A stretch of DNA of 27,669 nt from a virus (IMGVR_UViG_3300014911_000023:1-27669), one strand, 5' to 3'. Positions 4,526 to 22,807 are shown, counted from the stretch's first letter. Made by a program: numbers and translations. The notes: a model not told the origin generated them from the sequence alone.

Positions 4526-4623
4526 TCTTTCATCTCCCTTATTAACCTCTTAATCTCCTCCAGTTTTTCCTTTATCTGCCTTATGATTTCCCTGTTTAGC
4601 ATTTGTTTTTCGTCTTTTGTCAT
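4522..4623 (-). CDS. Tiny charged helical peptide, 33 residues
   Basis: A 33-codon frame starts at the ATG at 4623 and stops at TGA 4522-4524. It is linked by ATGA overlaps on both sides, to the end of the beta-helix protein gene and to the start of the next membrane protein gene. The peptide (MTKDEKQMLNREIIRQIKEK, then LEEIKRLIREMKE) is a single highly charged amphipathic helix suited to coiled-coil pairing. The double ATGA coupling and a gene-like composition support translation. It may mainly act as a coupling element or pair with the coiled coil of the next protein. Function unknown. Confidence 0.5.
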   Translation of the reverse strand: MTKDEKQMLNREIIRQIKEKLEEIKRLIREMKE

Positions 4624-6770
4624 TGCACATCCACCCAACCAATTACTGAACCTCCATCGCCGCCACTTGCTGCTCCTGTATCCATCACTGCTGGCTGTGC
4701 CTGAAATACGTAATCCATATTTGTAAGTGTAGGATTTCCGCCCGCAACGGTTATGGTCATATCATCCACATATCCAGAGTAAGTTATTCCACCATAAGCC
4801 CACGCTTCTATTTCTACCACTCCTGCCTCTGTGGGAGTAAAACTTATAGATAATTCTTCCCAGGTATCAGCCGCCGCCGTCATCTCATCTATCACATCGT
4901 TATCCACTCCAGCAATCTGTTTTCCTCTACAAACTAACTTCATTGTTAATCCTGTATTACTACGTCTGAACCACGTTTTAACTGTAACTTGATTATTGGC
5001 TGTGCAAGCAACTCTGGCTATCTTCAGGTCTAAAGGATAATCTAAGTTTCTATTAGCGGAAGTAACATCCAATCTCCAGGCAATTCCAAGGGCAGTATGC
5101 CTAACCGTTCCTTCGCTATGGATTTGTCCGCCATCGGTAAAAATTATATGATTATCCGCTGTCTGGTCGTGTTTTTGGGAGAATAGACGGCTATTTACAA
5201 AAGAAACAAGTCCTCCAACTTCCTGTGCTTCGGCTATCAGAGCATTAAAAAGATAATTCCTTCCGTAACCATTAATAATTCCTTTTGAACTATTATCTTC
5301 TGTTGATAAAGAATATATATAATTATTGCTGCTGTGAGAGGCAAAATAGATAGCATACCCATAGTTATTCCTGGCATTACTTATAGTCTTTATTTTATTG
5401 TAGCTGCTGCTGTAGAAATAAATGCCATAAGAATTATTATTATTAAGATTAGTCAAAGTGATTATAGTATTATTTTGGGCAGAGCCGAACGAAATGCCGT
5501 AAGAAGAATTGTTAGAAACATTAATTAAGTTGTTAATAGTGTTGTGATGACTACTATTGTAGTAAATACCGACACTTGAATTATTATTAGTGCTGGTCAA
5601 GGTATCTATGGTATTGTTACAACTATTATTGTAGTAAACAATACCCGTATAATATCTACAAACATTTAGATGGTTAAAAGTTACATTATGCTTTCCAGAA
5701 ACATAAATTCCGTATCCATAACCATTTAAGCCATCAAAAAATGTTTCGCCATCCTGAACTGTGGTGGCGGTATCCCAGCCACCCTGAAACTCTATGTTAT
5801 TCCCTGATGTTCCGCTATCCTGAACCGCCTGCACCTGTTTTGTCGAACTTGAAGCCATAGCAGTCTTAATTGTTTCCCTTTTATAAGTGGTAATGGTCTC
5901 GGTCGTTCCCGAATATCCTCTACCAGAGTTTGCCTCACGATTAGTATCGGTATCCAATTTAACGGTTATCCCTACAATACTTTGTATTCCATACCAACCC
6001 TCCGTGCCACCCTGTTCGGAGGAATTTTTTGAAATTAAACTTTGAAGGTTAAGTCCGTTTGTGGTGCAAGCGATAATGTTATCTAATAATAAAGTGGGGG
6101 TCATTGGGTCAGTATCCGCATAAACAGCGATTGATTGGATAGATGAGCCAAGATTTCCTCCGCCGTCTTTGGTCAAAGTTAAGGGGAGATATCTATTAGT
6201 TGAAGGGATTGCGGGGATATAAAAAGTATCAACGATGGTATCGCCTGTAGTATCCGAACACAAAACAACTTTAAGATAATTAGCGCTAATCACAATTGAA
6301 TTCCTAATCCAAAGTGAGATTTTTTGATAAGCCGATAAATCAAGAGTAGTAAAAGATTTATAGGCAACTTTACCAGTAGTAAAATCCGAACCGATGGCAA
6401 GAGAGGCGGAATAATTACCTTCTTTTTCTGTTGATGAAGTAGTAGCCGTAACATTGGTAGAAGCAACCCAAGCAGTTTCGCATAATTCAATGGTAGCGGT
6501 TTGAGCAGAAGTAAGGGTTACTGTCTTTGAAAGATTAGTCCACGTTGCATCACCAATAGAAACTGGGGCAGGGCTTTTAGCAATCCTGATAATATCACCA
6601 GGGGCTATCCTTATGGCAGTTGCTCCACTTGTGATTGTCTTCCAAGCATTAGCCCAAGACGAGCCGTCATTACTGTCGTCGCCATTTTCATAATCCAAGT
6701 AATAGATTGCAGCAAAACATTTACTTACTAACAGACTCACAAATATTAAAGTTAAAAATAGTTTTTTCAT
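4620..6770 (-). CDS. Exported right-handed beta-helix protein (tailspike-like)
   Basis: The 716-residue product begins with a clear Sec signal peptide (MKKLFLTLIFVSLLVSKCFA, cut near A20). After IYYLDYENGDDSNDGSSWANAW, a start typical of secreted parallel beta-helix proteins, comes a beta-sandwich-like region (~120-240). Next is an Asn/Ser/Tyr-rich repeat array (~345-510) with a period of about 24-26 residues (GIYYNSSHHNTINNLINVSN and variants), the signature of PbH1 beta-helix coils. A carbohydrate-binding-like sandwich follows (~560-675). In phages such proteins are receptor-binding or polysaccharide-degrading tailspikes. No catalytic set is evident. The signal peptide is unexpected for a virion protein assembled in the cytoplasm. 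The ATG overlaps the upstream TGA (ATGA). Confidence 0.7.
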   Translation of the reverse strand: MKKLFLTLIFVSLLVSKCFAAIYYLDYENGDDSNDGSSWANAWKTITSGATAIRIAPGDIIRIAKSPAPVSIGDATWTNLSKTVTLTSAQTATIELCETAWVASTNVTATTSSTEKEGNYSASLAIGSDFTTGKVAYKSFTTLDLSAYQKISLWIRNSIVISANYLKVVLCSDTTGDTIVDTFYIPAIPSTNRYLPLTLTKDGGGNLGSSIQSIAVYADTDPMTPTLLLDNIIACTTNGLNLQSLISKNSSEQGGTEGWYGIQSIVGITVKLDTDTNREANSGRGYSGTTETITTYKRETIKTAMASSSTKQVQAVQDSGTSGNNIEFQGGWDTATTVQDGETFFDGLNGYGYGIYVSGKHNVTFNHLNVCRYYTGIVYYNNSCNNTIDTLTSTNNNSSVGIYYNSSHHNTINNLINVSNNSSYGISFGSAQNNTIITLTNLNNNNSYGIYFYSSSYNKIKTISNARNNYGYAIYFASHSSNNYIYSLSTEDNSSKGIINGYGRNYLFNALIAEAQEVGGLVSFVNSRLFSQKHDQTADNHIIFTDGGQIHSEGTVRHTALGIAWRLDVTSANRNLDYPLDLKIARVACTANNQVTVKTWFRRSNTGLTMKLVCRGKQIAGVDNDVIDEMTAAADTWEELSISFTPTEAGVVEIEAWAYGGITYSGYVDDMTITVAGGNPTLTNMDYVFQAQPAVMDTGAASGGDGGSVIGWVDVQ

Positions 6771-7099
6771 TCTATCATCGATTGTTTTGTAAGTTCTTCA
6801 ATAATCAAATTTTTCTCTTTTATAATTTCTTTAAGTTTATTTATCGTTGGCTCTGGTGGAGGTGGATTATTTAGCATCTCACAAATTTTATTAGTTTCAG
6901 CAATAACTTCTTCTTCGGTTTCTTTATTCTGAAATTTTAGAATAATACATCTTTTTTCTTTGCCGTTAGTAATAACAACTTTAACCCGATATTTACCTGC
7001 TATATCCTGCCAAGTTTCTACTACTTTTTTGTATTGCCAAGTTTCTTGAGCAAAACAAAGAACAGGTATCAATAAAAACAATAACAACCATTTCTTCAT
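6767..7099 (-). CDS. Exported small protein with C-terminal coiled coil
   Basis: The 110-residue product has a textbook signal peptide (MKKWLLLFLLIPVLCFA, then QETWQ). The mature part has a short beta-rich segment (KYRVKVVITNGKEKRCIILKF) and, after a proline run (NNPPPPEPT), a coiled coil (INKLKEIIKEKNLIIEELTK). No family is recognised. It sits between two other exported proteins and overlaps the beta-helix gene by ATGA, so the three are probably made together. It may be a periplasmic or surface partner of the fibre-like proteins. Confidence 0.55.
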   Translation of the reverse strand: MKKWLLLFLLIPVLCFAQETWQYKKVVETWQDIAGKYRVKVVITNGKEKRCIILKFQNKETEEEVIAETNKICEMLNNPPPPEPTINKLKEIIKEKNLIIEELTKQSMIE

Positions 7100-7107
7100 A
7101 TTAACCT

Positions 7108-8373
7108 CTAACTTTCAGGTTGATAAAACCAAATCTGTAACACAAAGAAATTTGTATCTATCGCAGGGTCAACATCTATATCTATATAAAGTATTTTTCC
7201 TGTAGGTATTGTTCCGCTTCCTAAATCAGAATTAGACATATCGCTTTCAGATGAATTACCCGTTGTGGTATCTAAAACATCTATTAAAGTTGCATTAGCC
7301 CCTGGAAATGCCCCGTTTGATAATGTATCACAATACATAAGATTAGCATCAAGTTCAACAGAAGGATCTGCAACATTAGCATCAACTGCCCATTTCGTTA
7401 TTACTATTCCATCAGGATAGACGGTTGAGTCAAACTCATGTAGCCACTTATCGCTGTCTAAATCCCAATCTCCTGAGGTAATCAAGGCGGTTATTTTACG
7501 GTCAGAAGATATAGCTACTTCTCTTGTTCCGTCATGCCAAACAAATTGCTTCTGGGTGGTATCAACCGCCACCTCGCCTGCGGCATCGCAAGTGACATCG
7601 CCTGCTGTGTTAGGCACTTCAAGAGAGATTACCCCGCCAAAATCATACGCCCCTGTGGTAGAGTTTATCTCATCCGACCCCACGCTGTCATTGGGCAACA
7701 CAATTTCACCATCCCCTGTGCCGTCAACTGAAAAAGTTATTGAGTCGGTAGTTGCGTCGCCTACCACTAAAGGAATATTGCCTGTGTTTATGTTGCCGCC
7801 AGAGATGGTAATATCACCCCCAACACTTACATCGCCATCCTCATCAACAGCAAATAATTCAATCCAGTTTTCGTCGCCATCGTCAATCCCGCCTTTTCCC
7901 ACTTCAAAGATTTCCTGATTTGCCGTGCAACCCTGATTAAGAATATCAACGGCTATATTAAGCATAGCATTATCAGTTCCAGTCGAAGCGGTTTTCTCTG
8001 TGCTAAAAGTCAAGCTATCCTCGTCGTTTTCTTCATAACCTAAACCCCAATCACTATCACTACCAAATCTAAGGCGTTGGTCGTCTATAAAGGTTACATT
8101 GTTAGCAGTCCAAATCATATCGGAAGTCCCTGCAAATGCTCCTGAATTGTTATATTGAAATTCGGTATCATTACCACCAGGTGTTCCACTAAAAGTTAAT
8201 TCATCTAAGGTTTCAAACGCCTTTTGTGCGGTATTATCCGCAGAAGATAAATTATTATCAAAATTGCTTGTATCTGTCCTTATTTGCTTTGCCCTGGAAG
8301 GCGGTAAATCCGAATAACCGACTTTTACGGAAATAAACAGAATTGCGATTATAAGTATCTGTTTTTTCATCAT
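7108..8373 (-). CDS. Exported tail-fibre-like protein
   Basis: I start at the ATG at 8373 (MMKKQILII..., 421 residues) because AAGG lies 9 nt upstream; a TTG at 8391 is also open. A Sec signal peptide (MKKQILIIAILFISVKVGYS) precedes DLPPSRAKQIRTDTSNFDNN. The rest is low-complexity beta-structure typical of phage fibres: GGNDTEFQYNNSGAFAGTSD (N-terminal third), DGDVSVGGDITISGGNINTG and DGTGDGEIVLPNDSVGSDEI (middle), then a globular C-terminal head (~300-421). Fibre proteins recognise host surfaces, but they rarely have a signal peptide. The strand-like repeats and neighbours support a fibre. Whether it is on the virion or on the host surface is open. Confidence 0.65.
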   Translation of the reverse strand: MMKKQILIIAILFISVKVGYSDLPPSRAKQIRTDTSNFDNNLSSADNTAQKAFETLDELTFSGTPGGNDTEFQYNNSGAFAGTSDMIWTANNVTFIDDQRLRFGSDSDWGLGYEENDEDSLTFSTEKTASTGTDNAMLNIAVDILNQGCTANQEIFEVGKGGIDDGDENWIELFAVDEDGDVSVGGDITISGGNINTGNIPLVVGDATTDSITFSVDGTGDGEIVLPNDSVGSDEINSTTGAYDFGGVISLEVPNTAGDVTCDAAGEVAVDTTQKQFVWHDGTREVAISSDRKITALITSGDWDLDSDKWLHEFDSTVYPDGIVITKWAVDANVADPSVELDANLMYCDTLSNGAFPGANATLIDVLDTTTGNSSESDMSNSDLGSGTIPTGKILYIDIDVDPAIDTNFFVLQIWFYQPES

Positions 8374-8384
8374 AATATTTACCC

Positions 8385-8418: not shown

Positions 8419-8994
8419 ATGAAAGTGTGTAAGTTAATTACCATATGTTTTTGTCTGTTTCTTTGTAGTTGTGTTTCGGCAAACCATTTCATTAAAACCC
8501 TTGATAGAAACCCTAATCTTGCCCTTTCCGAAGCCGAAGAAAAAATCGGCAAACCTACCGAAGTTGTCAAAGTTGCTGAAGACTCCTCTATAATTTGTCA
8601 TATTTACGGCTCTCCTAAATGGGGTCAAGCTGCTGCATATTTCGTAAAAGGCAAATTATTCAGTTACGATAAAAATTCTGCCCTTTTTCATTTAGACACT
8701 TACTACGATCTCCGCCTCATAAGCAAAGAAGATTATCGCTGGGGTTATGAGCAGATACAGCGCCAGGCCTACCAACAAGCAATATTAGAAAGCCAACAAA
8801 ATGCTATGGCTATAAATATGTTTATGGGTATGCAAAGTCTAAACCTACAACAGCAACAGTTAGATTTGCAAGAGCGACAAACTAATATTAATGCTTTTAA
8901 ATCTAATAATTCTACTAATTCCTTTTCTCTGCCTAAATCTTATACCATTTTTAACCGCTATGGCTTTCCAGTAGGAAGTGTGAAAGAGCAATGA
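8419..8994 (+). CDS. Moron lipoprotein, possible envelope or superinfection-exclusion protein
   Basis: The 191-residue product has a lipoprotein-type signal (MKVCKLITICFCLFLCSC; the lipobox-like LCSC is slightly atypical). Next comes a domain of about 70 residues (ALSEAEEKIGKPTEVVKV... YFVKGKLFSYD) with the 'IGKPT' turn and short beta strands seen in SmpA/BamE-like lipoproteins, then a Gln-rich helical region (~110-165). It is encoded against the surrounding late operon from its own promoter, the hallmark of a moron: an added gene expressed independently, often in lysogens. Phage lipoproteins in such places (T5 Llp, phi80 Cor) block receptors or alter the envelope. That function is inference from context; there is no clear homology. 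Confidence 0.65.
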   Translation: MKVCKLITICFCLFLCSCVSANHFIKTLDRNPNLALSEAEEKIGKPTEVVKVAEDSSIICHIYGSPKWGQAAAYFVKGKLFSYDKNSALFHLDTYYDLRLISKEDYRWGYEQIQRQAYQQAILESQQNAMAINMFMGMQSLNLQQQQLDLQERQTNINAFKSNNSTNSFSLPKSYTIFNRYGFPVGSVKEQ

Positions 8995-9164
8995 ATATAG
9001 TTAATCTCTATAAAACTAATGAGTCTTTTGGTATTCTTGTAAAAGCAATTTTTAAAACCAGTATAGTCATTATTGCGTTTTTAGTTGCTATTCAAATTTG
9101 TAAGATTTTGAAAAATCGTTGCAAAAACTGCCCCTCCTTAGCTGAAATCGGCTATTCATACTAA
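8991..9164 (+). CDS. Small single-span membrane protein
   Basis: The frame from the ATG at 8991 overlaps the lipoprotein stop as ATGA and encodes 57 residues. It has a membrane segment (FKTSIVIIAFLVAIQICKIL, residues ~21-40) followed by a short Cys-bearing tail (KNRCKNCPSLAEIGYSY). Its TAA overlaps the TAG of the convergent 1165-residue protein gene by two bases. Translational coupling to the lipoprotein suggests a two-protein envelope unit. No family is recognised. Confidence 0.6.
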   Translation: MNIVNLYKTNESFGILVKAIFKTSIVIIAFLVAIQICKILKNRCKNCPSLAEIGYSY

Positions 9165-12100
9165 TCAAATAAATTAGGCATTACTAAACTTTTATTTTTT
9201 CCCTTACCAAACAAATCAGGCACAACTAAAGACTTAGCTTTTTTTATAAGGCTAAGCCCTTTCCTTGCAATCTCTACTCTTCTTTTCTCTATACCGTTAA
9301 TCAACTTTCTTTTTTCGCTTTCGCTATATTCTTCTGATTTAATTATTATTTCTATCTGTTTAGTTAAATTAGATAAAATCTTTGCCTGTTTATTCAAAAT
9401 GCGTGCAAATGTAAGGTTTGGATATTTACTCTTTATTTTTGAAGCATTTTCTCTGTCGCCTTTTTTTAAGTAATTACGATAAGTATAATATGCTTTACTT
9501 AATTCATTCTTATTTTCATAAAACTGTTGAATACTCTCTGCTCCCGAACTCATTGCTGGTCTTGTAACAAATCCTTTTACTAAAGGAAAATCTGATAATT
9601 CAGCTGGTCTTTCTGGTTTAACTTTTTCACCACTTGCTTTTTTTATTCCTTTAATTAGCATATCCCCTGCTTCCAAAGCATACTTTCCTGTTCCGCCAAA
9701 CCAGCCTTGAGCTAAATTTTCTATCTTCGCTGGAGGATATTTTCCTACCTTACCTAATAACTTCGCTGTCTCTGTGGTATATTTTCCATATTGTTCCTCT
9801 GGTAATAATCTTTCTCTACTTTCTGGAACAATAGGTCTTTCCCTAAAAAAGCTCCAATTAGTAGCATTTTCAATCAATGGTTTTATAGCAGTTGCTAAAA
9901 TACCCGAAGCAGGGTCTCCAGAAACAGGCAATAAAGCGTCATATAAAGATTTATCTATTTTGTCAAAAGCGCCTGGGTCTTGGGTATCTAAATATTCCAT
10001 AAACCTTTCTGGTAATGAACCAAATATCTGTCCGTATAAAAATGGTTTTGGCACTCTTACATAAGTATTTCTTACTTTTGTTACCCAGAATAAATCTCTC
10101 TCCCAGCGAGGTATTTCTTTATAATCAGGGTCATTGCGATTTTTAAGATATAATAATAAAGACGGTATAGTTATGCTGGTAATCCCTTTTATCGCAAATC
10201 CAGCTGGGTCTGCCTTAGCAGTCCTAAAAGATTTATCAATTCCTTGAATACCAGCATTGAAAAAGGCAATAACCGCATTTATATCTTTTGTCTTAGCTCC
10301 CTTCCGCGCAAAATCGACAGTTGCCTCTCTGCTTTGGTATCCGGCCTCAACCGGTGTCATTCCTTTTTTAATCGCTCTTTTATAAACCCCTAATCTTGTT
10401 GCCTGTTCAAATAACTGGCTAATATCCTGAGCTTTAGATATTATGTTTAAGTTTTTTAACAATGATGGTCTGCGTTGTAATTCCTTTAAGGATTTTTGTA
10501 AATTAGACCTTGATAGCTCTACAAATCCGGAATAAGCCCCTCCAGAGCGAAGCCAGTCAACATATACTTCAGACTTACCTAATATATCCGCTATTGAACC
10601 CCCAGTATCCACAAATGGCTTGAAGCCGAAATTTGTCTGCATTAAAGCAGTTAGCTGGTCTCTTATGGGATTTCTAAACATAAACTCCGGCGTTATGGTT
10701 GCACCTACTCTTAACCAATGAGCAGGTTTAGACATAATCTCTGTCATTAAACCTAAAGAGGTTTCATTTAGCCCGGTCATTGCTTGATAAAGATTAGGAG
10801 TAACTTCTATATACTGGCGTTTTCCATTCTCAAAATATTCTATGACATTGCCTTTAGGCTTAAATGGGCTTGGGCCAAAAATAGTTTCAGTAGCCTTTTC
10901 ATATTGAGCAACCATTGAAGGTCGTATCTTCAAAAGTGGCTTCAATTCCTTATGTTGTTTAATTATTTTAGTAAGAACCTTTTTAGCATTAGCAAGAGGA
11001 ACAATAGGGATTTTTACAGGAGATATGTCTTCAGGTAAAACCTTGCTTAATTTAGCTACTCCTCTTGCAACCGTATTTCTTTCGGCAATATCCATAATCC
11101 GATAAGTATTTTTAATCATACTTTCAATAGGATTATGGATTTCCAATTCCGAACCTTTAATACGCTTTATAGGACTTCTTGCGCCAGTAAACCTTTTTTT
11201 GCTTACAGGAAGGCTGGAAGTATCAACACTTTCTATAACCCTGTCAAAAGGAATATAATTAGGGTTTCTGGCGAGAATTAAATCATACTGTTGTTGAGAC
11301 ATATTTCCACTATCTACAAGAGTATGTAAAACCCTTTTTTGATAAGCGTAAAGGCGTTGGGCGGTTTGTTCTAAATGGGTTATATTCTTGCCATACTTCT
11401 TGTTAAGATTATTTAAAGTTGCTTTTGCTTGCCCCACCTGATTAGAAGTCGCTATCTGTTCTTTAGTCCACTTAGCTTTTGGCCTCTGCAAATCTTTTAT
11501 TGTCCTGCTTGCAATAAGATAATCTACTAAATCTTTTTCCCTGTTTACCCTTCCTTTAATTGGGCTTCGTTTATCATAATAATCTAATATAGGTTTTAAG
11601 CCTTCGCCGGTAATCTCAATTTTTCCTTGTGGGGTTATACGATAAGTTTTGTTTTCTAAAACTGTATGGACTTTATTCCCTACGCTTAAATAAGTCCGCG
11701 CTCTTAAAGCCGGATTTTCCCCTGGTAGTATTTTTGCCCCTAATTCTTTGGCTTTTTGAACGGTATTCTCTATTGATTGAAAACGATTGATATAATTCTG
11801 ATAAATTCTCTCTCTTGTTTCATAAGGTAATACTTTACGGTATCCCTTTACTAATGGAGAATATTTACTTTGGGTTGCCTTAAATTCTTTCATAGTGGGG
11901 GATTTGCCCCACAATGATAAACCTGCTAATACCGCACCACCTGCGATTTTTTCTTCTATATCCCCAGGAGTAGTAATTGCACCAGTTCCAAAAGCAACGG
12001 GAATTTTAGCTTGAATAGGCAAAACATTTAACCCCTTCAACATCCCTTTTGTTAAAACTCCTACCGTTCCCCCGGCTAATGCTCCTTTTACCTCGCCCTC

Positions 12101-15042: not shown

Positions 15043-16383
15043 TTATGGAAAATAACCTACTAACTCTACGACCGCCCTGACTCTGTTGTTGCTATAAGCT
15101 CCTCCATACTCTACAATACCGTTGGCATCTGTATAAGCCCAAACGAAATTATAATCACCCTCGTGGAAATATTGTTCTAGGGGAGCATCAGTCGAACCAT
15201 TAGTCCTAATACTTCCTTTATCTGTTGTTCCCTCTGGGGGAGTATCTTGAGCTGTTATTTTAAATAAGCATAAAACAGCATTTGATCCTACATATGCGCT
15301 AATATCTAAGTCATACCAACTTAAAGGAAATTCCGTTTCTGATAAAACCGTAGAACCGTCTTCTTTAAAAGCATATGCCCAAATCGGGTTTACCCCTGCA
15401 CCTTGTGATTGCAAAAATTGCCCTGCTGTTCCCTGTGAACCTAAACCATCAGCGTCATCACTTGCATTATTAACAATCAACTCACCAGTAGCGGTAGTAC
15501 CACCTATCTGAACACCATCCATTGTGCCACCGTTTATATCTATATCCGTAACCGTAGGGGCGGAAGCAGCACCTATTGTTACGCCGTCTATTGACCCGCC
15601 GTCAATATCAAAATTACTTCCCTCAATCTCGTTTGCCCCTGCTGTTAATTTACCTCCAGTATTAAGTGTAGTGCAGGTAATTGCTCCAGCAGAAGAACCT
15701 CCGATTGTAACCCCATCTATTGACCCGCCGTCAATATCAAAATTACTTCCCTCAATCTCGTTTGCCCCACCAGTAAGCTTTCCGCCAAGAGTAACTGTTC
15801 CAGTGGTGGCAACATTGCCTAAATTAGTTACCGTTGGCGCTGAGGTAGCACCGATGGTAACGCCATCAATAGACCCGCCGTTTATATCGCAGGTCGTAAC
15901 TGTCCCTAAATTAGTAACAGTCGGAGCGGATGAAGCACCTATCGTAACTCCGTCTATCGTGCCACCGTTAATATCAACAGTCGTAACTGTCCCTAAATCA
16001 GCCCAAGTCCCTGAAACCGTCTGATCGGCGGTAAAAGTCCAAGTAACCGCAGGAGTAAAGGTTATTCCATTGGCGCAGTTAATAGTCAATAATTCACTTG
16101 AACCATCCCCTAAAGTTGTGTTTCCGCTTGAGGTAAATCCGCCAGAAGCAGTCAGCGTCCCTGAAAAGGTGCTATTGCCGGAAGTGGTTATCGCTATATT
16201 TGAAGCCAGATTATCCGTATCCAAATCATTAACTTCATTGATAATCTCGTCAAAAGAAGTATTGAGGAGCGCCGCCGTAAGCACTTCTCCGTTTATATAT
16301 GTGTGGGATTTTGAAATATCCCCGCAGTAACCATAAGTGAATAACAATAAAACTATTGCCAAAATTAAAAGTTTCTTTACCAT
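15043..16383 (-). CDS. Exported repeat-containing tail-fibre-like protein
   Basis: The 446-residue product starts with a signal peptide (MVKKLLILAIVLLLFTYGYC). The segment YINGEVLTAALLNTSFDEII is the common phage fibre N-terminal motif ('dG-xxLTAaxLN'). The central region (~100-310) is built of repeated units DINGGSIDGVTIG and NLGTVTT with a GANEIEGSNFDIDGGSIDGV variant, a fibre shaft of short beta turns. A globular C-terminus (~330-446) contains Trp/Tyr-rich strands. The shaft is partly duplicated at DNA level (15587-15768). Its start overlaps the previous stop (ATGGTAA). The signal peptide is again unexpected for a cytoplasmically assembled fibre. Confidence 0.7.
   Translation of the reverse strand: MVKKLLILAIVLLLFTYGYCGDISKSHTYINGEVLTAALLNTSFDEIINEVNDLDTDNLASNIAITTSGNSTFSGTLTASGGFTSSGNTTLGDGSSELLTINCANGITFTPAVTWTFTADQTVSGTWADLGTVTTVDINGGTIDGVTIGASSAPTVTNLGTVTTCDINGGSIDGVTIGATSAPTVTNLGNVATTGTVTLGGKLTGGANEIEGSNFDIDGGSIDGVTIGGSSAGAITCTTLNTGGKLTAGANEIEGSNFDIDGGSIDGVTIGAASAPTVTDIDINGGTMDGVQIGGTTATGELIVNNASDDADGLGSQGTAGQFLQSQGAGVNPIWAYAFKEDGSTVLSETEFPLSWYDLDISAYVGSNAVLCLFKITAQDTPPEGTTDKGSIRTNGSTDAPLEQYFHEGDYNFVWAYTDANGIVEYGGAYSNNRVRAVVELVGYFP
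15587..15768 (-). repeat. 53-bp direct repeat inside the fibre shaft
   Basis: The same 53 bp occur at 15587-15639 and 15716-15768, offset by 129 bp (43 codons), so reading frame is kept. They encode ANEIEGSNFDIDGGSID in both copies. Further degenerate GGSIDGVTIG units occur between 15520 and 16000. Such identical in-frame repeats allow the shaft to lengthen or shorten by recombination or slippage. Assembly collapse from short reads is also possible here. Confidence 0.85.
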
Positions 16384-16844
16384 TTGTAATCCTTCCTTAA
16401 TTGTTCATATTTTGCAATTGCATCCTCAAAATTGACAATTTCATCTTTAGGAATGAAATTCTGCTTGCTTAAATTCTTTCCGTATTTTACCGTCAGGCCT
16501 GTATCATCAAAATTTACTATCGTCGGAATACAGAAATAATGCACATCATAATCAACTTTAAGTATTACGGCTATACAGTATTTATTTAACTGCTCCTGCG
16601 TAGGCAGGCGTGCAGAGGCCGTATTTGATATTGACATTACTAAAATAAATGCTATAATTAGAATAGCGAATGAGGGAACGGATTTTTTATGTCTAAAATT
16701 GGCGGTGAGTAAGTCTTGGAAACTTAACCGTTTCCTCATTTGCAGACTGAAAGCCGTCTTTATTTTGGAGATAGGAATACACTTGATGATAGATCTAAAA
16801 ATCTTAAATTGTTTTCTAATCAAGGTGAACATATAAAATTTCAT
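16377..16844 (-). CDS. Hypothetical protein with internal hydrophobic export-like segment
   Basis: The open frame starts at an ATG (16844) that overlaps the upstream TGA as ATGA and gives 155 residues. An alternative ATG at 16739 gives MRKRLSFQDLLTANFRHKKS followed by a hydrophobic stretch (FAILIIAFILVMSI) ending SNTASA, an ordinary signal-peptidase site before RLPTQEQ. The mature ~78 residues (AVILKVDYDVHYFCIPTIV, FIPKDEIVNFEDAIAKYEQL) match nothing I know. The part encoding the N-terminal half is also the complement of the candidate plus-strand RNA at 16631-16766, so the first ~60 residues may not reflect selection on protein. It lacks the Gly and Glu+5 of a true prepilin, although a prepilin peptidase gene lies nearby. 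Confidence 0.45.
   Translation of the reverse strand: MKFYMFTLIRKQFKIFRSIIKCIPISKIKTAFSLQMRKRLSFQDLLTANFRHKKSVPSFAILIIAFILVMSISNTASARLPTQEQLNKYCIAVILKVDYDVHYFCIPTIVNFDDTGLTVKYGKNLSKQNFIPKDEIVNFEDAIAKYEQLRKDYKW
16631..16658 (+). promoter_or_regulatory. Consensus promoter on the strand opposite the operon
   Basis: TTGACA (16631-16636), a 16-nt spacer and TATAAT (16653-16658) match both consensus hexamers perfectly. The predicted start (~16665) falls one base before the 5' arm of a 16-bp inverted repeat. No plausible protein gene follows on this strand: there is only an 8-codon frame at 16689 and a 16-codon frame near 16789. A non-coding or antisense RNA is the simplest product. Confidence 0.65.
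16665..16766 (+). ncRNA. Candidate ~100-nt structured (antisense) RNA
   Basis: Immediately after the promoter, GCGAATGAGGGAACGG (16666-16681) pairs with CCGTTTCCTCATTTGC (16728-16743) over 16 contiguous bp. Two of these are G-U pairs that exist only in the plus-strand RNA; the complementary strand would have A-C mismatches. The 46-nt loop can hold AUUUU/AAAAU (16682-16686/16695-16699) and UAAGU/ACUUA (16710-16714/16722-16726), giving a three-way junction. The closing stem is followed without a gap by AGACTG-AAAG-CCGTCT (16744-16759, one U-C mismatch) and TTATTTT, a weak terminator-like end. I recognise no known RNA family. The RNA would be complementary to the late-operon mRNA in the 155-residue gene. 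Confidence 0.5.
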
Positions 16845-17245
16845 CTAATATCTAAACTTCGTGCTACCTCTACCCATACTGAACCCGTATAAGTTAAAGT
16901 TATTGCTGAATAAACGCTTGCGGTTGATGTTACGGTAAAAGCCGCACCGGCAAGTTTCACATTGGAAGCCCAACCCGCAACCGTTCTTGAACCTATGGCA
17001 TCCTGTAAGAAAATTATTGTTATCGTCCTTCCCTGATAAGCGTTTTTTAAGGTAATACCGGTAATATTTCCAGTCAGGGTAATCTTGAATATATCTCCCT
17101 CATCGCAGTCAAAAGTAGGGGTAGCCGAAAAATCCACGCTGATATACCTTCGCTCTATCAGACGGTATAATTCTCTTAAATGGTCTTTAAGCAAAAATAA
17201 ATCCTGCGGCTGCTTTAAATCCTCAAATAATATCTCTTTATCCAT
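16841..17245 (-). CDS. Small tail/fibre-type beta-sandwich protein
   Basis: The 134-residue protein has an N-terminal helical segment (LKDHLRELYRLIERRY) and then a beta domain: SVDFSATPTFDCDEGDIFKI, TLTGNITGITL, RTITIIFLQDAIGSRTVAGW, TLTYTGSVWVEVARS. The pattern 'G-D-x-F-K-x-TLTGN...I-x-F-x-QD-x-x-GSRTV-x-W...ITL-x-Y-x-G-x-W-x-E-V-x-R' is common in small phage tail-fibre and collar proteins, so a fibre or head-decoration role is likely. No signal peptide is present, unlike its neighbours. Its ATG overlaps the prepilin peptidase stop (ATGGATAA). Confidence 0.6.
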   Translation of the reverse strand: MDKEILFEDLKQPQDLFLLKDHLRELYRLIERRYISVDFSATPTFDCDEGDIFKITLTGNITGITLKNAYQGRTITIIFLQDAIGSRTVAGWASNVKLAGAAFTVTSTASVYSAITLTYTGSVWVEVARSLDIR

Positions 17246-17615
17246 AAACCACCAAAAGTAAAACTGCCGTTAATATAAAAGGCGCATAGGGCTTCGGCTC
17301 TCCAGTCTTAAAAGGCATATATAATACCCAGGCCAGAAAAATAGATAATAAAGTAATCTGCCACCCCAAAAAAGAACCTATTACGCTGAATAACTTTGCG
17401 TCTCCTCCACCTAAAATATGCAACCTTGTATTATTTATAATCCATACCGACAAAAAACCTATGGCAACGCCTAAAGAAGAAAACACAATATTCCTTGTAA
17501 AAAATATCCCTAAAGCTATCCCGCCAACAGTCAGATAAACCGGAATAATTTTAGTCTTTATGTCAAATAGGCAAGCTAAAAGCAATATCGGAATCAATAA
17601 CTTAACAGGCGTCAT
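17238..17615 (-). CDS. Minimal A24 prepilin peptidase-like membrane protease
   Basis: From the ATG at 17615, overlapping the TGA of the tail nozzle gene as ATGA, the product has 125 residues and about four membrane spans. Both catalytic aspartates of GxGD aspartic proteases are in context: D18 in LFDIKTKIIP (compare D-x-+-x-+-IPN) and D72 in HILGGGDAKLF. The length corresponds to the catalytic core without the N-terminal methyltransferase domain, as in TadV/CpaA-type enzymes. Such proteases remove the class III leader from type IV pilins, pseudopilins or Flp pilins at the cytoplasmic side of the inner membrane. No canonical prepilin is encoded in the window, so a host pilin or an unrecognised phage substrate is implied. 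A longer reading from 17645 is less likely. Confidence 0.8.
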   Translation of the reverse strand: MTPVKLLIPILLLACLFDIKTKIIPVYLTVGGIALGIFFTRNIVFSSLGVAIGFLSVWIINNTRLHILGGGDAKLFSVIGSFLGWQITLLSIFLAWVLYMPFKTGEPKPYAPFILTAVLLLVVYG

Positions 17616-19132
17616 TCTATCCTGTAACCTTTCATAGGCCGCCATAAAAAGCCCAGAGCATACAACCTAAAATATTCATCAACGGTAGAGTGTGAAATAA
17701 GCAGTTGTATCCTTTTCATTCTCTTATTTATCTCACCGGATCGTTCTACAACATCAACGCCACCTAAAGTAGAAGTGCCTAACACGAAATCTATACCTAA
17801 TAAGTCCACTCCTGTTACCATTGAAAGAGTAAAATTATCCGTCTCTAAATTAGTCCTGTATTCAACAGTAATATCGTAATTACCTACCGCATCAAACAAG
17901 GCTATCAAGTATTTAATCTGCTTTTCTAATTGGGTATCGCCGAAATCAAGCCAGGGGAAATACATTTGCGAGGTATAGGCTGCGCCGAGGTTATTATAAA
18001 CTGAGGTATCATGTTTACAGACTGTGCCGGTATAATTGCCTGAATATAAATACTCCCTACCGGATACTTTTCTTTTTCCGAATGAATTAACCACAAAGTC
18101 GGATATACACCATTGCATATTTTTATAATCAAGGATAAAGCAATAATCATTGGTAGATCCTGAGCCGGAAGTAAAAGCGCACCAGTAAAGATTCTTCTCT
18201 TTTATTATTCCCGACACGCAATATTGCAACCTGTTCAGATTTATTTGGAATGGCGCTCCTTCAGAGAAGAAAGCCTTTATATCGTCGCCTATTGAAGTAA
18301 CCGTATCGCCTATCAACTGGTAAAAATTATCCCTGCCTATCCAAATCAGCCGTTCCGGATACGCGCCGCAAGGAGGGATATTCTGCATACTGAAATGGCT
18401 CATCACGCCGGTTTTCCTACTTATGCAGTAATACTTAAAGGGTGGAGTTGTCCCTGTGTGATAAACCCTGAAGATTGAATCTTCTTTGCCTACCACAAGA
18501 GTATTAAGATGTTCACATACGCCGCTTATCGGTTTATCGTCAGATTCAGAAGCCTTAAAGTTAAGGTAATCATTAGTGATATCCCAGAAAGTCCTGTCGT
18601 TTATCCCGGACCAATACGCTAATTTAGGCTGAGCCGCCGTATTAAGGGAAAAAAGCCTGTTCTTTAAAACAGCGTTGAATTTGCCCGCCGGCATATTTGA
18701 AACATTGGTGGCATTACCTGAACCGCCGTCATGTTCAATGGCCGAGTCCCTTAATAAACAAGTACCTATGAGGTAATCTTGAAATTTAGAAAAAGTCCAT
18801 AAGTTATTTGCGCTATCCGTAATTGAAACCCCTCCGGTCTTGTCTTCCCAAGTACCGTTATTATCTTTATAGAATTTACTCTCAGCTATGCAGAAAAAGG
18901 CCGGGGTGGTAATATCAAGCTCATATATTCCGGTTATCTCATCATCCGAGCCGATAGCGCTTGAATTATGTTTAGAGCGCCCGAAAAGCTTGGCAATCCC
19001 GCCTTCAGGATGATTATAACAATTCAGAATATAAGTTGCTTGCCCCTTCTGCGTGATAATATCGGGAGTATCAACAACATTCATCCCGCTAAATAATTTC
19101 GTAACATTCGTGAAGCGATGCCGTTTATACAT
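17612..19132 (-). CDS. Tail nozzle / hub protein (P22 gp10-like)
   Basis: The 506-residue protein resembles podovirus tail hub proteins (P22 gp10, T7 gp12 type), which form a beta-propeller nozzle below the neck. Supporting blocks are GMNVVDTPDIITQKGQAT near the N-terminus; NRLFSLNTAAQPKLAYWSG and NDRTFWDITNDYLNF (~155-195); DKPISGVCEHLNTLVVGKED (~200-220); PERLIWIGRDNFYQLIGD; and a repeated-strand C-terminus ending FLWRPMKGYRIE. The gene follows the adaptor gene, as in P22-like phages, and is coupled by ATGA to the prepilin peptidase gene. Its Shine-Dalgarno is weak, so coupling to the upstream gene (stop 2 nt before) probably drives initiation. Confidence 0.75.
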   Translation of the reverse strand: MYKRHRFTNVTKLFSGMNVVDTPDIITQKGQATYILNCYNHPEGGIAKLFGRSKHNSSAIGSDDEITGIYELDITTPAFFCIAESKFYKDNNGTWEDKTGGVSITDSANNLWTFSKFQDYLIGTCLLRDSAIEHDGGSGNATNVSNMPAGKFNAVLKNRLFSLNTAAQPKLAYWSGINDRTFWDITNDYLNFKASESDDKPISGVCEHLNTLVVGKEDSIFRVYHTGTTPPFKYYCISRKTGVMSHFSMQNIPPCGAYPERLIWIGRDNFYQLIGDTVTSIGDDIKAFFSEGAPFQINLNRLQYCVSGIIKEKNLYWCAFTSGSGSTNDYCFILDYKNMQWCISDFVVNSFGKRKVSGREYLYSGNYTGTVCKHDTSVYNNLGAAYTSQMYFPWLDFGDTQLEKQIKYLIALFDAVGNYDITVEYRTNLETDNFTLSMVTGVDLLGIDFVLGTSTLGGVDVVERSGEINKRMKRIQLLISHSTVDEYFRLYALGFLWRPMKGYRIE

Positions 19133-19133
19133 C

Positions 19134-19850
19134 TTATAAATTATAATCCTTCGGTTGATACGCCCTGCCCCTGACAGTTATACAGGGATGAGGACGCACT
19201 CTTTTGGGCCTGCCCAACCTGTGAACCTGCCTTTTTTTAAGCAGACCTAATGCGCTATCAGCTAATCTTTCCCAAAGTGCAAATCCTTCGGTGTCGCCCA
19301 TTTCGGCGCAAATCAATTTATTCGTCCAATAAACTAAACCCTGATGATGGGAAGTTGGTATCTCCGGAATATCGGTATCGCTGGAAAGCTCTGTTGGTTT
19401 TTTCTGATATTCCATTTTCAGAGGAGAGTAACTTGAGACAAAAGCGCTGTCCGGCACTAATACAAACAAAATACGCCATATCCCTGATTTCATAGTTATA
19501 TGACATCCGTAAACATCGCCTTCGTCTGTATCCTCTTCCCTTTTCCATTCGGTATCGTCATACTGATTCAATACCTGCCTTTTATTTGCAGAATTCCTGT
19601 AAAATATCTCAACCGGCTGGTCTTCATCCCAATCAGAAGCCACATCAGACATATTCACATATTGCTGGGAAGCCGTTAAAGTAATATCCGTTTCCCTCTG
19701 CATCCAGCTATATTTCATCGTATTGCAGATTTCCCGAAGGGCATCATTAACCTTTTTCTTTACATAAGTAATATGCGAAGTAGTTGTATCTCCAGTATCC
19801 CTTGCAGACTCGTTATAAATATCGCTAAACTGCTTACCATATGTAGGCAT
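19134..19850 (-). CDS. Neck adaptor / head-completion protein (P22 gp4-like)
   Basis: The 238-residue protein has the look of podovirus head-tail adaptors: an N-terminal helical bundle (SDIYNESARDTGDTTTSHIT, VNDALREICNTMKYSWMQRE), a beta insertion (DITLTASQQYVNMSDVAS, PVEIFYRNSANKRQVLNQYD), EYQKKPTELSSDTDIPEIPT with the conserved 'P-x-L...D-x-P-E-IP' segment, then HHQGLVYWTNKLICAEMGDT and a basic C-terminus. In the family it docks under the portal and connects to the nozzle. AAGGGG lies 6-7 nt before the ATG. Gene order, directly upstream of the nozzle, agrees with the assignment. Confidence 0.7.
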   Translation of the reverse strand: MPTYGKQFSDIYNESARDTGDTTTSHITYVKKKVNDALREICNTMKYSWMQRETDITLTASQQYVNMSDVASDWDEDQPVEIFYRNSANKRQVLNQYDDTEWKREEDTDEGDVYGCHITMKSGIWRILFVLVPDSAFVSSYSPLKMEYQKKPTELSSDTDIPEIPTSHHQGLVYWTNKLICAEMGDTEGFALWERLADSALGLLKKRQVHRLGRPKRVRPHPCITVRGRAYQPKDYNL

Positions 19851-19860
19851 TTTTCACCCC

Positions 19861-20145
19861 TTACTTATAAAGAATTTCTATCTCAACTACAATACCGGCG
19901 GTATCGGGAATATAGACATAAAGCTTCTTTACATTTTTTAAAACGACAAAACCGGAAGTTGAAGTCATCCAGGTTGAAGGAGAAGCGGTGTAGGCATACC
20001 TGAAATGATCCGCAGTTGTCCCTTCCCTCAACTTTACCTTGATTTCCTGAATCGGGTTTTTACGATAATCACTCTCATCAAAAACCTTATACCAAGTATC
20101 AGCAAGAGTGCAGGTATAATTTATTATCCTTGACATCCTACCCAT
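19861..20145 (-). CDS. Small beta-rich head/neck protein
   Basis: Ninety-four residues, mostly beta: INYTCTLADTWYKVFDESDY, QEIKVKLREGTTADHFRYAY, GFVVLKNVKKLYVYIPDTAG, IVVEIEILYK. The final 'K-x-LYVYIPD-x-AGIVVEIEI' resembles small phage head or decoration proteins of similar size. GGGAG lies about 6 nt before the ATG at 20145, which overlaps the coiled-coil gene stop by 8 nt. There is no signal peptide, in contrast to the decoration-like pair at 22025-22807. The exact role is unknown. Confidence 0.5.
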   Translation of the reverse strand: MGRMSRIINYTCTLADTWYKVFDESDYRKNPIQEIKVKLREGTTADHFRYAYTASPSTWMTSTSGFVVLKNVKKLYVYIPDTAGIVVEIEILYK

Positions 20146-20587
20146 TAAAAACTCCCTTAATAACCTCTATCGTTTTTTCAAGCTTGTTTTTTATATCCTC
20201 TACCTCTGCCTTTAAGTCCAGATATTCTCTGATGCTCGTTTGCAGATTTACCTTTAGTTTGTCGGTTTCTTTTATTTTCTCATCAAGGGTTTTCTGCAAT
20301 ATTCCGGCTTGTCCCCTGTCTTTAACTAAAGCTTCCTTTTGAGAAACTACCTCATTTTCCTGTATCTTTAGCTTTTCCAGGGCGGCATTAACAGCCTTTG
20401 CCACTTCGCCAGCCAGATATTTAGACTTATCAGCAACCGCCGAATTAAGCTCTTTTTGTTTGCGGCTTAGGGCTTCAATATCAGCCTCATAATTGGCTTT
20501 CTTTTTTTCCAAGCCGTCAACTTCCTTTTTCAAAACGCTGACTCTTTTTTCAAAATCGCTTACGATTGTCTTAATATTCAAATTCAT
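20138..20587 (-). CDS. Coiled-coil protein, 149 residues
   Basis: Almost the whole protein is heptad-patterned: KRVSVLKKEVDGLEKKKANY, EADIEALSRKQKELNSAVAD, KLKIQENEVVSQKEALVKDR, TDKLKVNLQTSIREYLDLKA, ending EDIKNKLEKTIEVIKGVFNG. No signal peptide or membrane segment is present. AGGAGG lies 6 nt before the ATG. Its place between two small neck-region proteins suggests a structural or assembly (chaperone-like) role. Long coiled coils are not family-diagnostic, so no specific name is given. Confidence 0.55.
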   Translation of the reverse strand: MNLNIKTIVSDFEKRVSVLKKEVDGLEKKKANYEADIEALSRKQKELNSAVADKSKYLAGEVAKAVNAALEKLKIQENEVVSQKEALVKDRGQAGILQKTLDEKIKETDKLKVNLQTSIREYLDLKAEVEDIKNKLEKTIEVIKGVFNG

Positions 20588-20588
20588 C

Positions 20589-20936
20589 TTAACCCTCCTT
20601 TTTTATTTTCTTTGTCGGATTCATCCTTTTTACTTTTTTCTTTGGTTTTACAACCGGCTTTCCCTCAACCTCTTTAACAGATTCGAATTTTGGAATTGTG
20701 TCTGTTGGAATTTCCGAAATAACTAGTTTAGGTTTTTCCTGTTTATCCTGTGTTACTCCCGTAATCTCAAACTCCCATTGAGTATAGGAAAGTTTAATAT
20801 TGCCTTGTAGTAAACGGTAAGCTTCATTATCGGGAAGCTCTATAATTTTTCTCTCCGGCCAAAAGATTTTTCTCTGATGATTCTCTAAAAGAACTGCCCT
20901 GGGAAAACGTCTGCCGTTGTAACGTATTTTAATCAT
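20589..20936 (-). CDS. Hypothetical protein with basic tail, 115 residues
   Basis: The first ~60 residues are beta-rich (MIKIRYNGRRFPRAVLLENH, KIFWPERKIIELPDNEAYRL). The second half becomes Pro/Val/Lys-rich and very basic (VVKPKKKVKRMNPTKKIKKE), a disordered nucleic-acid- or protein-binding tail. GAGG precedes the ATG, which overlaps the ligase-like gene stop by 8 nt. Similar short proteins beginning 'IxxxG...W..G...ElPd..A..Ll..g' accompany capsid genes in other phages, hinting at a head-completion role. The match is vague. Confidence 0.45.
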   Translation of the reverse strand: MIKIRYNGRRFPRAVLLENHQRKIFWPERKIIELPDNEAYRLLQGNIKLSYTQWEFEITGVTQDKQEKPKLVISEIPTDTIPKFESVKEVEGKPVVKPKKKVKRMNPTKKIKKEG

Positions 20937-22056
20937 GAATAACCTCCTTATTTTGCTTGTCTAATAAATATGCCTCAAAAAGAGCAATTATTATTATTAT
21001 TGGAACAGCTAATCTGCCTATATGAAGTGCGTCCTGAAAAAAACAGACCACGAGTATTGAAATTATTGATAAAACAAAAGCCATTTTTAATCTATCACCG
21101 ATAATTCCGGCGGATAATCTTTTAAAATAAGAAAATAAGGAATAAGCCAATATGACAAAAGGCACAAACCCAAACTCATATATAAACCTTAAGTATTCGT
21201 TGTAAGTCTCAACAATCCAGCCTTCGCCTAATCTGAAATTAGATAATTCGGCGTGTAATGTAAATGTATCCAGGCCATATCCGATAAAAGGATTGCCTAA
21301 ACTTTGTTTCAGAGTAAAAAGCCAAACCGGAAGCCGAGAATTGATTTTATATGACAAAGAGCCGAATAAAGGCAAAGCTATAAAAACCACTAATGCTAAA
21401 ATCGGAATAATAATTAAAATCTTTTTCTTCCAACTCTTAATCTGGAAATGAAGCGCCACTAAAAACATAGCTGTAAAAGCAAGCATAGCCGCATAATTCC
21501 TGACCATTCCTAACGCTATCCCTACCAAAAGAAGCGCCCATACTGAAAAAACAGCAAGTATCGGTGCAATAAACGCAAGTAATATCGCAAGGTGCTTATT
21601 CATCGCCATAAGGCCGCAGAAAAGTTTAGGTTGTTCGCCATATACTAAATTTATTCCAAAAAGCTGTAATACCATAAACGCAACATTAATTAACGCCAGA
21701 TACATAAACCACTTTAAAACGCCCTGAATATCAGAAGTGCTGCGCACGATAGCGTAATAAAGCAGGCAACCAAAAATAATATGTAATAGGCTTATTGATA
21801 AATGATGAGGCGCTCTTATGAGGGAAATGACTACTGCGAGGATAAACAGAATCAGGATATTATAATTCTTAAATTCTCTTTTGGCCGGCAGGCTTATGCT
21901 CAACCCGAAAAGAATCAAAGCGCCATAGTTAAAAAACAAAAGCTGTAATGACTTCTGAGTAAAACCCGGCAGCCAGATAATCGGTGCAAGAAATAAAAAA
22001 GCTTTCAAAGACCAATCAAATATATTAGTAGTAATAAACGATTGCTGACGCACCAT
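20929..22056 (-). CDS. O-antigen ligase/polymerase-family membrane protein (Wzy/WaaL/PglL superfamily)
   Basis: From the ATG at 22056 (GGAG 4 nt upstream; a start at 22086 is less likely) the product has 375 residues and about 10-11 membrane spans. The Wzy_C-type periplasmic region lies at ~238-300: INSRLPVWLFTLKQSLGNPF, IGYGLDTFTLHAEL, then TYNEYLRFIYEFGFV, matching 'R..W..al..i..nPl.G.G' and '(H)N.YL....E.G'. The His usually before that Asn is Tyr here. The superfamily polymerises O-antigen, ligates it to lipid A core, or transfers glycans to proteins (PglL/PilO); sequence alone does not separate these. It overlaps the second secreted decoration-like gene by 32 nt and the next gene by 8 nt, so it is an integral part of the late operon. 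Phage O-antigen polymerases are known in serotype conversion. Confidence 0.75.
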   Translation of the reverse strand: MVRQQSFITTNIFDWSLKAFLFLAPIIWLPGFTQKSLQLLFFNYGALILFGLSISLPAKREFKNYNILILFILAVVISLIRAPHHLSISLLHIIFGCLLYYAIVRSTSDIQGVLKWFMYLALINVAFMVLQLFGINLVYGEQPKLFCGLMAMNKHLAILLAFIAPILAVFSVWALLLVGIALGMVRNYAAMLAFTAMFLVALHFQIKSWKKKILIIIPILALVVFIALPLFGSLSYKINSRLPVWLFTLKQSLGNPFIGYGLDTFTLHAELSNFRLGEGWIVETYNEYLRFIYEFGFVPFVILAYSLFSYFKRLSAGIIGDRLKMAFVLSIISILVVCFFQDALHIGRLAVPIIIIIALFEAYLLDKQNKEVIHD

Positions 22057-22375
22057 TTTGCTCCAGATATATACCCTCACGAGCATTAAGACCTTCAGAA
22101 AAGTCTATTTCCGTGCTGCAATATTGGGTTGCTTCCTGAAGTTCTATCAAGACCGTTTTTCCAGAAACAGCAGATGAAGATGAGTCATAAACAGCTACCC
22201 ACCCTTGAGCCGAAGTAGCAAGCATACTGACTTTATAAATCTTGCCGGCACTTGTTTTTATTGCTGTATCTGAAGTTTTAAGGTCAGAGCTAACCATCCT
22301 TTGAGCGTCAGAAGCAAAAACTAAGCTTACAAAACAAAAAAATACTAATATAATTAAAGAGATTATTTTCCTCAT
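22025..22375 (-). CDS. Exported small decoration-like protein (paralogue 2)
   Basis: Starting at the ATG at 22375 (GAGG 5 nt upstream) the product is 116 residues with a strong signal peptide (MRKIISLIILVFFCFVSLVFA, cut before SDAQRM). The mature part is a small beta domain (KIYKVSMLATSAQGWVAVYD, SSSSAVSGKTVLIELQEATQ, NAREGIYLEQNGASAIVYYY). Its order of strands matches the neighbouring protein at 22433-22807, so they are tandem paralogues. This 'IY-x-V...V-Y-D...GIYL...A-x-IVYY' pattern is common in small phage head proteins encoded after the capsid gene, but a signal peptide is not usual. A Ser-rich loop (SSSSAVSG) could be a glycan acceptor if the adjacent ligase-like enzyme acts on protein (inference). 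Confidence 0.6.
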   Translation of the reverse strand: MRKIISLIILVFFCFVSLVFASDAQRMVSSDLKTSDTAIKTSAGKIYKVSMLATSAQGWVAVYDSSSSAVSGKTVLIELQEATQYCSTEIDFSEGLNAREGIYLEQNGASAIVYYY

Positions 22376-22390
22376 TTTATCCTCATCATT

Positions 22391-22421
22391 AAAGTAAGGA
22401 GCGGCCATTTAAGACCGCCCC
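22391..22421 (-). terminator. Stem-loop (possible partial terminator) between the two decoration-like genes
   Basis: On the minus strand GGGGCGGTC (22413-22421) pairs with GGCCGCTCC (22398-22406) over 9 bp with two G-U pairs, a 6-nt loop and TTACTTT after it. The hairpin starts 11 nt after the stop of the first decoration-like gene. The interrupted T-tract suggests partial termination or mRNA stabilisation, which would raise capsid-side expression relative to the genes further on. Confidence 0.5.
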
Positions 22422-22432
22422 TTGACTTTTGT

Positions 22433-22807
22433 TTACCTATACTCAACAACTACGGCAGCATTTGAACCACTAAGATCAGCATAAGCACCGGTTGAAACTT
22501 TAACAGGCCTGGTAAATTCTAACCTTGCAGAATCACCAGCAGTAGCTTCAGCGACTTCAATTACCACATTTCCAGTTGCACTTGAAGCATCATATATGGT
22601 TAATGTAGAAGTCGCACTGGCTGCATATAAGGTTACGGCATAGATATAGCCTGCACCACTAAAAAGGGAACCATCGCTATTTCTTGCCGAACAGTTTACA
22701 TAACCAGCCTCATCAGCATCTTCTCTATCATAAGAACCGGCGAATACAGGAACAAATGCACCCAATACGAGAGCCAGGCAAACTAACAAACAAAATAACT
22801 TTTTCAT
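22433..22807 (-). CDS. Exported small decoration-like protein (paralogue 1)
   Basis: The 124-residue product has a textbook Sec signal peptide (MKKLFCLLVCLALVLGAF then VPVFA, cut before GSYDRED). The mature part holds a beta domain (YIYAVTLYAASATSTLTIYD, ASSATGNVVIEVAEATAGDS, STGAYADLSGSNAAVVVEYR) with Ala/Ser/Thr-rich turns. GGAG lies 8 nt before the ATG, 15 nt after the capsid stop. This is the classic place for a capsid decoration protein, and the fold pattern fits small head proteins, but the signal peptide would send it to the periplasm. It may therefore coat the cell surface rather than the capsid, or be attached to virions after export. Confidence 0.65.
   Translation of the reverse strand: MKKLFCLLVCLALVLGAFVPVFAGSYDREDADEAGYVNCSARNSDGSLFSGAGYIYAVTLYAASATSTLTIYDASSATGNVVIEVAEATAGDSARLEFTRPVKVSTGAYADLSGSNAAVVVEYR

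Follow-up and report, generated by a model that had tools for sequence, protein, structure and literature searches.

Sec-type signal peptides on fibre, spike-like and capsid-adjacent proteins in a Bcep22-like phage lineage

Signal peptides in the late operon

The viral contig IMGVR_UViG_3300014911_000023 (positions 1-27669; this whole stretch of 27,669 nucleotides is called the window in the following) carries a phage late operon in which seven genes start with signals of the Sec/signal peptidase I type, consisting of a K/R-rich tip, a hydrophobic stretch and an A-x-A-like site. These are the two genes after the capsid gene (SP1 and SP2), two fibre genes, the gene of a beta-helix protein and the genes of two small partners (Table 1). 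We favor the explanation, with a probability of roughly 0.43, that virion-type fibre and outer proteins of this phage are exported by the Sec machinery and join the virions at lysis. The first-pass annotation had described signals of this kind in at least six genes of the operon, in proteins at decoration, fibre and spike positions, and regarded them as real and unexpected there. The counts given below agree with this, and the number of genes rises to seven. "Decoration position" is a statement about gene order only.

Signals were called with a home-made scorer, not with SignalP. It requires a K/R n-region, an uncharged h-region with a mean Kyte-Doolittle value of at least 2, small residues at positions -3 and -1 and the lack of a later membrane helix. 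The strict scorer called 5 of the 24 late-operon genes of the window, and the signals of fibre 2 and of the small partner upstream of fibre 1 were called by eye. Among 96 annotated virion-region coding sequences of BcepIL02, PEp14, T7, P22 and HTVC106P, the same scorer called one. With the background rate taken as 2/97, the binomial probability is 1e-4 for five genes and 4e-7 for seven genes. The Bacteroidota phages B40-8 and 11b, used as a further control, showed no signal-bearing fibres by the strict scorer. Purine-rich ribosome-binding sequences are located upstream of several signal-bearing starts, most clearly for SP1, SP2 and fibre 1. Judged by n-region, h-region, the residues at -3/-1 and the lack of a later helix, the proteins are predicted substrates of Sec and signal peptidase I, and we infer that they are indeed exported and cleaved.

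Table 1. Genes of the window discussed in the text, with predicted N-termini of the signal-bearing products (^, predicted cleavage site)
Feature	Position	Strand	Predicted N-terminus	Basis and remarks
Major capsid protein, Bcep22-type	22823..24154	-		phrog_334 1e-37, PF13252 8e-22; no signal peptide called
SP1, signal peptide and ~100-aa beta-sandwich	22433..22807	-	MKKLFCLLVCLALVLGAFVPVFA^GSYDRED	N-terminus, ribosome-binding site; directly after capsid gene
SP2, signal peptide and SP1 paralogue	22025..22375	-	MRKIISLIILVFFCFVSLVFA^SDAQ	Signal in relatives
Polytopic membrane protein, Wzy_C / O-antigen-ligase fold	20929..22086	-		Adjoins SP2 in relatives whose contigs span the stretch
Tail hub / head-closure type protein	17612..19132	-		phrog_3287 2e-21; 57-75% identity in relatives; no signal
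Short prepilin-peptidase-like membrane protease (Peptidase_A24)	17238..17645	-		PF01478 1e-15; no N-terminal domain
Small signal-bearing partner upstream of fibre 1	16377..16844	-	...SFAILIIAFILVMSISNTASA^RLPT	Signal by eye; start codon uncertain
Fibre 1, signal-bearing, with a conserved anchor-like N-domain, repeats and a variable C-terminus	15043..16383	-	MVKKLLILAIVLLLFTYGYCG^DISK	
Fibre 2, signal peptide and DTSNFDNNLSSADxTxQKAxETLDE domain	7108..8373	-	MMKKQILIIAILFISVKVGYS^DLPP	
Small signal-bearing protein between fibre 2 and beta-helix gene	6767..7099	-	MKKWLLLFLLIPVLCFA^QETW	Strict scorer
Right-handed beta-helix protein, spike-like, signal-bearing	4620..6770	-	MKKLFLTLIFVSLLVSKCFA^AIYY	Pfam NosD/Beta_helix 6e-11 and 1e-9; strict scorer

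Conservation of the signals in the lineage

Relatives were taken from IMG/VR as contigs with capsids 61-80% identical to that of the window. Across these, the strict scorer called the signal in 9/10 SP1, 8/8 SP2 and 3/4 fibre 1 proteins. The two misses, one SP1 and one fibre 1, are clear signals by eye, which brings SP1 to 10/10. No protein was called among 48 members of seven other families (portal, scaffold, 94-aa, coiled-coil, 238-aa, hub and 134-aa proteins). The capsid protein was called in 2/10 relatives, which is due to its amphipathic start. In sequence, the signal segment changes at the same rate as the mature part (mean identity 36-38%) but keeps its high hydrophobicity and a charge of +2, and thus behaves like a functional signal.

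Alignment with relatives had been proposed at first pass as a check, and it showed that the signals are uniformly kept within the lineage, by the strict scorer or by eye. Homologues uniformly starting only after the hydrophobic segment had been named as evidence against the signals. Such proteins exist only among distant homologues, namely the N-domain of a fibre in genome G190 and phage proteins with the SP1 fold, whereas no loss was seen within the lineage. The signals therefore look like a lineage-specific addition to virion-type proteins. That the signals are present and conserved, and that homologous or same-fold domains of other phages lack them, is shown by the sequences. A further signal-bearing gene of ~90 aa was observed upstream of the portal gene in three contigs (L002:2254-2526, L014:2433-2708, L102:2611-2895); the window ends before this place.

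The signal-bearing proteins

SP1 and SP2 are paralogues, as shown by their profile match (hhalign probability 99.6, E 1e-23). The likely start of SP2 is an internal ATG at 22375, which lies 11 codons into the mechanical open reading frame (ORF). The AlphaFold2 (AF2) model of SP1, with a predicted local distance difference test (pLDDT) value of 80, matched 45 viral models at E < 1e-3 in BFVD. The matches include phage proteins of ~95 residues (91-103 aa). The four top-ranking ones, of 93-103 residues and with target template modelling (TM) scores of 0.76-0.86, are complete phage proteins. Because the fold alone fills their length, these proteins have no room for a signal. Most of them are of no known function; a weaker match (E 1.1e-3, rank 48) carries the annotation of a virion structural protein. 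The SP1 model gave no match in the PDB at 1e-3. SP1-like proteins were found neither in 285 genomes of Omnitrophota, the group in which the genome bin of the window is placed, apart from the window's own, nor in 50,697 phage records searched by tblastn. These searches thus give no support to capture from a host gene. The 94-aa neighbour was not detectable as a signal-less SP1 paralogue (hhalign probability 2%).

Homology to phage fibre domains and the position among tail genes mark the fibre candidates as putative tail fibre or virion structural proteins. The N-domain of fibre 1 is well conserved among close relatives and the C-terminus varies, as expected of an anchored receptor-binding protein. 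Its repeats match long signal-less phage fibres (L195 and L205) at 36-37%. A profile of the fibre 1 N-terminus found two contigs of the Omnitrophota genome G190 (same class), in which the gene starts MAQVTITPFVANTVLTAAALNNAFNAIINQVN without a signal. This homologue is placed after a hub gene and a ~140-aa gene, matching the order hub, ~140-aa gene, fibre in the window; the contigs of G190 and of G170 were read for gene order only and are not proven integrated proviruses. The small partner upstream of fibre 1 has a homologue in L004, MQNKRCEVILILVGLLSITVNAFA^ALPTQ, which aligns with the window protein over LPTQEQL. All three fibre or spike candidates of the late operon bear a signal, and a virion without them would thus have no obvious receptor-binding fibre.

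Recurrence in other phages

A scan of IMG/VR with the fibre 2 domain gave 63 loci. The domain is N-terminal in about 31 of these, of which 17 carry a signal; this count takes in near-duplicates and seeds, and since all seeds had signals it is biased upwards and indicates recurrence, not frequency. The fibre 2 domain also led to L140, whose gene order nearly equals that of the window on an unrelated capsid. In L140, terminase, portal, scaffold and a Mu-gpT-type capsid are followed by a 178-aa protein with a signal and by a Wzy_C membrane protein; next come a 140-aa protein, again with a signal, a 118-aa gene, a coiled coil and a fibre that also bears a signal. L170 contains three consecutive signal-bearing genes directly before a portal-like gene. 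Its stretch 2899-5220 encodes a signal-bearing fibre, a small protein and a further protein that shares the SSWANAW motif with the beta-helix protein of the window, the latter two with predicted export, in the order of window positions 8373-4620. A signal-bearing fibre is also located downstream of a capsid-like gene in L188 and of connector-type genes in L128 and L203; the neighbours in these three loci and in L170 were named by eye. Three consecutive signal-bearing genes in a tail-like region were further seen in L132:5770-10057 (IMG/VR record 2884458355), which, judged from the record number, is probably an isolate genome.

Gene order, host and related phages

The contig is viral, and its late operon is located on the minus strand, with all genes named at first pass present. 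Portal, scaffold and capsid genes come first, followed by SP1, SP2, the membrane protein gene and small structural genes. Next are a connector-like gene, the tail hub and the prepilin-peptidase-like gene, and then a 134-aa gene, the small signal-bearing partner and fibre 1. Beyond fibre 1 lie an acetyltransferase-like gene, three more genes and the gene of a 1165-aa protein, after which fibre 2, the other small signal-bearing gene, the beta-helix gene and a lysis-type region complete the order. The capsid family (phrog_334 / PF13252) and the related gene order place the phage in a Bcep22-like lineage. The idea that the element might not be a conventional virus could not be upheld, as relatives with terminase, portal, scaffold, Bcep22-type capsid and tail-hub genes sit on free viral contigs. 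No close relative was found in GTDB genome contigs at the patterns scanned.

The window is contig C13 of a 1.74 Mb genome bin, which is placed in the Omnitrophota by its RpoB (85% to UBA1562). The GC content of the contig (0.39, bin 0.34-0.42) and its tetranucleotide pattern are compatible with the bin but not diagnostic. The assignment to an Omnitrophota host rests on binning, with which this fit is compatible without being proof of the link. Two overlapping ORFs, 3491-3718 (membrane/coiled-coil) and 3328-3618 (lipoprotein), resemble an inner/outer spanin pair, which suggests a host with an outer membrane. The latter is one of two lipoprotein-type signals outside the seven. The other belongs to the plus-strand gene 8419-8994, a lone opposite-strand gene with a Cys-rich export signal, which is lipoprotein-like and probably an extra gene acting at the envelope. 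Capsid and scaffold (24179-25027) share an extra amphipathic N-terminus of ~20 residues (e.g., MxxLKRWFLSLLxLLSDxSG), also present in L002, L003, L006 and L105; the 252-aa connector-like protein of L105 begins in the same way (MKNFILELIELLSDNSG). This segment may be a shared assembly or membrane tag.

The Bcep22-like podoviruses BcepIL02 (Lessievirus) and PEp14 (Pavtokvirus) share the capsid family at 26-29% identity over about half the protein, and have portal, capsid, small structural genes, tail fibres and an N-acyltransferase in similar order. In contrast to the window, their virion-region proteins carry no export signal, except for one BcepIL02 fibre call taken as false. They also have no annotated Wzy_C or A24 gene in the stretches read, and their DarB-type proteins are much larger. 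Phage fibres with "LTAAxLNxxFxxI" or "TSNFxNNLSxADDxVQKALDTLD" N-domains have N-domains and repeats homologous to those described here, but in these conventional fibres there is no signal at the start, or the domain is internal.

Membrane proteins of the operon

The membrane protein next to SP2 is of the Wzy_C fold. Pfam Wzy_C was matched in 5 of 6 lineage members (best 1e-11), with the window copy under the cut-off. The single standout PDB match of its AF2 model (pLDDT 70) is the O-antigen ligase WaaL (7tpg, TM 0.57). The modelled fold and the motifs R..W and P..G.G...F agree with the Wzy_C family; the Arg and the P-x-x-G-x-G motif are kept. However, the His of HNxYL is replaced (Y/F/Q/S) in all six phage lineage members, whereas it is present in L140 and in four aligned Omnitrophota homologues. 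Due to this loss, we do not classify the window protein as a working O-antigen ligase or glycosyl transferase. Wzy_C homologues occur in 83 of the 285 Omnitrophota genomes. The L140 protein (9136-10389) matches Pfam at 1e-9 and the profile of the window lineage at E 1e-19. In two capsid lineages, those of the window and of L140, a protein of this fold thus has a fixed place after the capsid gene and beside proteins with predicted export.

The catalytic Asp pair of the A24 peptidase (D-x-K/E-T and G-x-x-D) is kept in the window, L014 and L016. The gene is found at the same place in L014 (14458-14904) and elsewhere in L016 (3274-3654). A separate A24 gene, with a frame of 277 aa, is present in the host bin. 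A class III (prepilin-type) signal, as expected of a substrate, was not found in the eight phage loci scanned.

The closest described case is the gene pair of VarioGold, in which a phage-encoded Wzy_C O-antigen ligase adjoins a gene for a signal-peptide protein, as a separate cassette (PMC9658991). The O-antigen ligases of D3 and VarioGold are separately transcribed extra genes, whereas the gene of the window is fixed in the virion operon after the capsid genes and its product has lost the His. Llp of phage T5 is an envelope-acting lipoprotein that is exported and acts at the cell surface. Proteins of the Llp type are single lipoproteins, in contrast to the several fibre-, spike- and decoration-type proteins with signal peptidase I signals in the virion operon described here.

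Fate of the exported proteins

According to the explanation favored here, the Sec machinery would export the beta-sandwich proteins SP1 and SP2, the fibres, the beta-helix spike and the small partners late in infection. After cleavage at the A-x-A site, these proteins would fold in the periplasm or farther out. Capsid, scaffold, portal and tail hub would not leave the cytoplasm, where their assembly would take its usual course. Virions passing through the envelope at lysis would then be bound by the exported fibres and outer proteins, and the receptor-binding layer would be completed outside the cytoplasm. Attachment to virions is regarded as the most likely fate of these proteins. It is put somewhat ahead of a coat on the host surface because every fibre or spike candidate of the late operon bears a signal and the fibre anchor domain is kept. 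That several tailed-phage lineages finish their virions in this way, with Sec-exported fibres, spike and outer capsid proteins that mature in the periplasm and are added at lysis, is a more tentative proposal.

Several points weigh against attachment to virions. Virion assembly in tailed phages takes place in the cytoplasm, and lysis would be the only occasion for exported proteins and virions to come together. No precedent for Sec signals on tailed-phage fibres was found in open-access papers, which is weak evidence since subscription literature was mostly outside the scope. The N-domain of fibre 1 is weakly conserved in the most distant relative (19%). Moreover, the signals were called with our own scorer instead of SignalP, and the proteins are known here from their genes, so that their presence on the particle is a prediction.

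The main rival, which we consider somewhat less likely, is a coat on the host surface. The exported proteins would stay on or around the infected cell, where they could cover receptors, shut out other phages or prevent progeny from sticking to cell debris, with the Wzy_C-like membrane protein assisting; adsorption of the virion would depend on its hub and 134-aa proteins. Export normally delivers proteins to the envelope, and the polytopic Wzy_C-fold protein is co-conserved beside SP2 and occurs again in L140 with its unrelated capsid. Phages D3 and VarioGold carry O-antigen ligase or polymerase genes for surface conversion (PMC9658991). The opposite-strand gene 8419-8994 also resembles an ordinary surface-acting extra gene. 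In contrast to such a gene, the signal-bearing genes are located inside the virion operon, on its strand and conserved in place, and do not form a separate cassette. A host coat would leave the phage without an evident fibre, the fibre N-domain is kept, the active-site His of the Wzy_C protein is lost in the lineage, and late expression is a poor time for exclusion.

A glycosylated secretome run by the phage is improbable. Here the Wzy_C protein would glycosylate the exported proteins in the periplasm, resulting in sugar-coated virions or cells, and the prepilin peptidase would support type II/IV secretion to the cell surface. The Wzy_C family includes O-oligosaccharyltransferases such as PglL/TfpO, and the WaaL fold match, the position beside exported proteins in two capsid lineages and the Asp pair kept in three A24 peptidases fit this idea. 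Glycosylation by the window protein is doubtful, however, given the HNxYL His missing in all six members but kept in L140 and the Omnitrophota homologues, and the phage loci scanned offer no class III substrate. Equally improbable are hydrophobic N-terminal peptides that serve virion assembly (trimer nucleation, docking, removal by a phage or host protease) instead of export: the amphipathic starts of capsid and scaffold and the 20 N-terminal residues of P22 gp7, removed by a host protease (record note), are in favor of this, but the former are amphipathic helices of the W/R/L kind, most of which the scorer did not call, whereas the signals occur on unrelated folds and have a canonical K/R n-region followed by a short h-region, with A-x-A directly ahead of the domain.

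The general assumption is that tailed phages make every part of the virion in the cytoplasm. With prior export of fibres and outer proteins, the proteins determining host range would instead fold in an oxidising compartment open to periplasmic enzymes of the host, and lysis would be the stage at which particles are completed. If they stay on the host, these phages would be using tail fibres as surface proteins. In both cases, Sec signals on phage fibres are a recurrent feature that has so far gone unremarked and can now be tested, and such signals would have to be considered in gene calling and fibre prediction.

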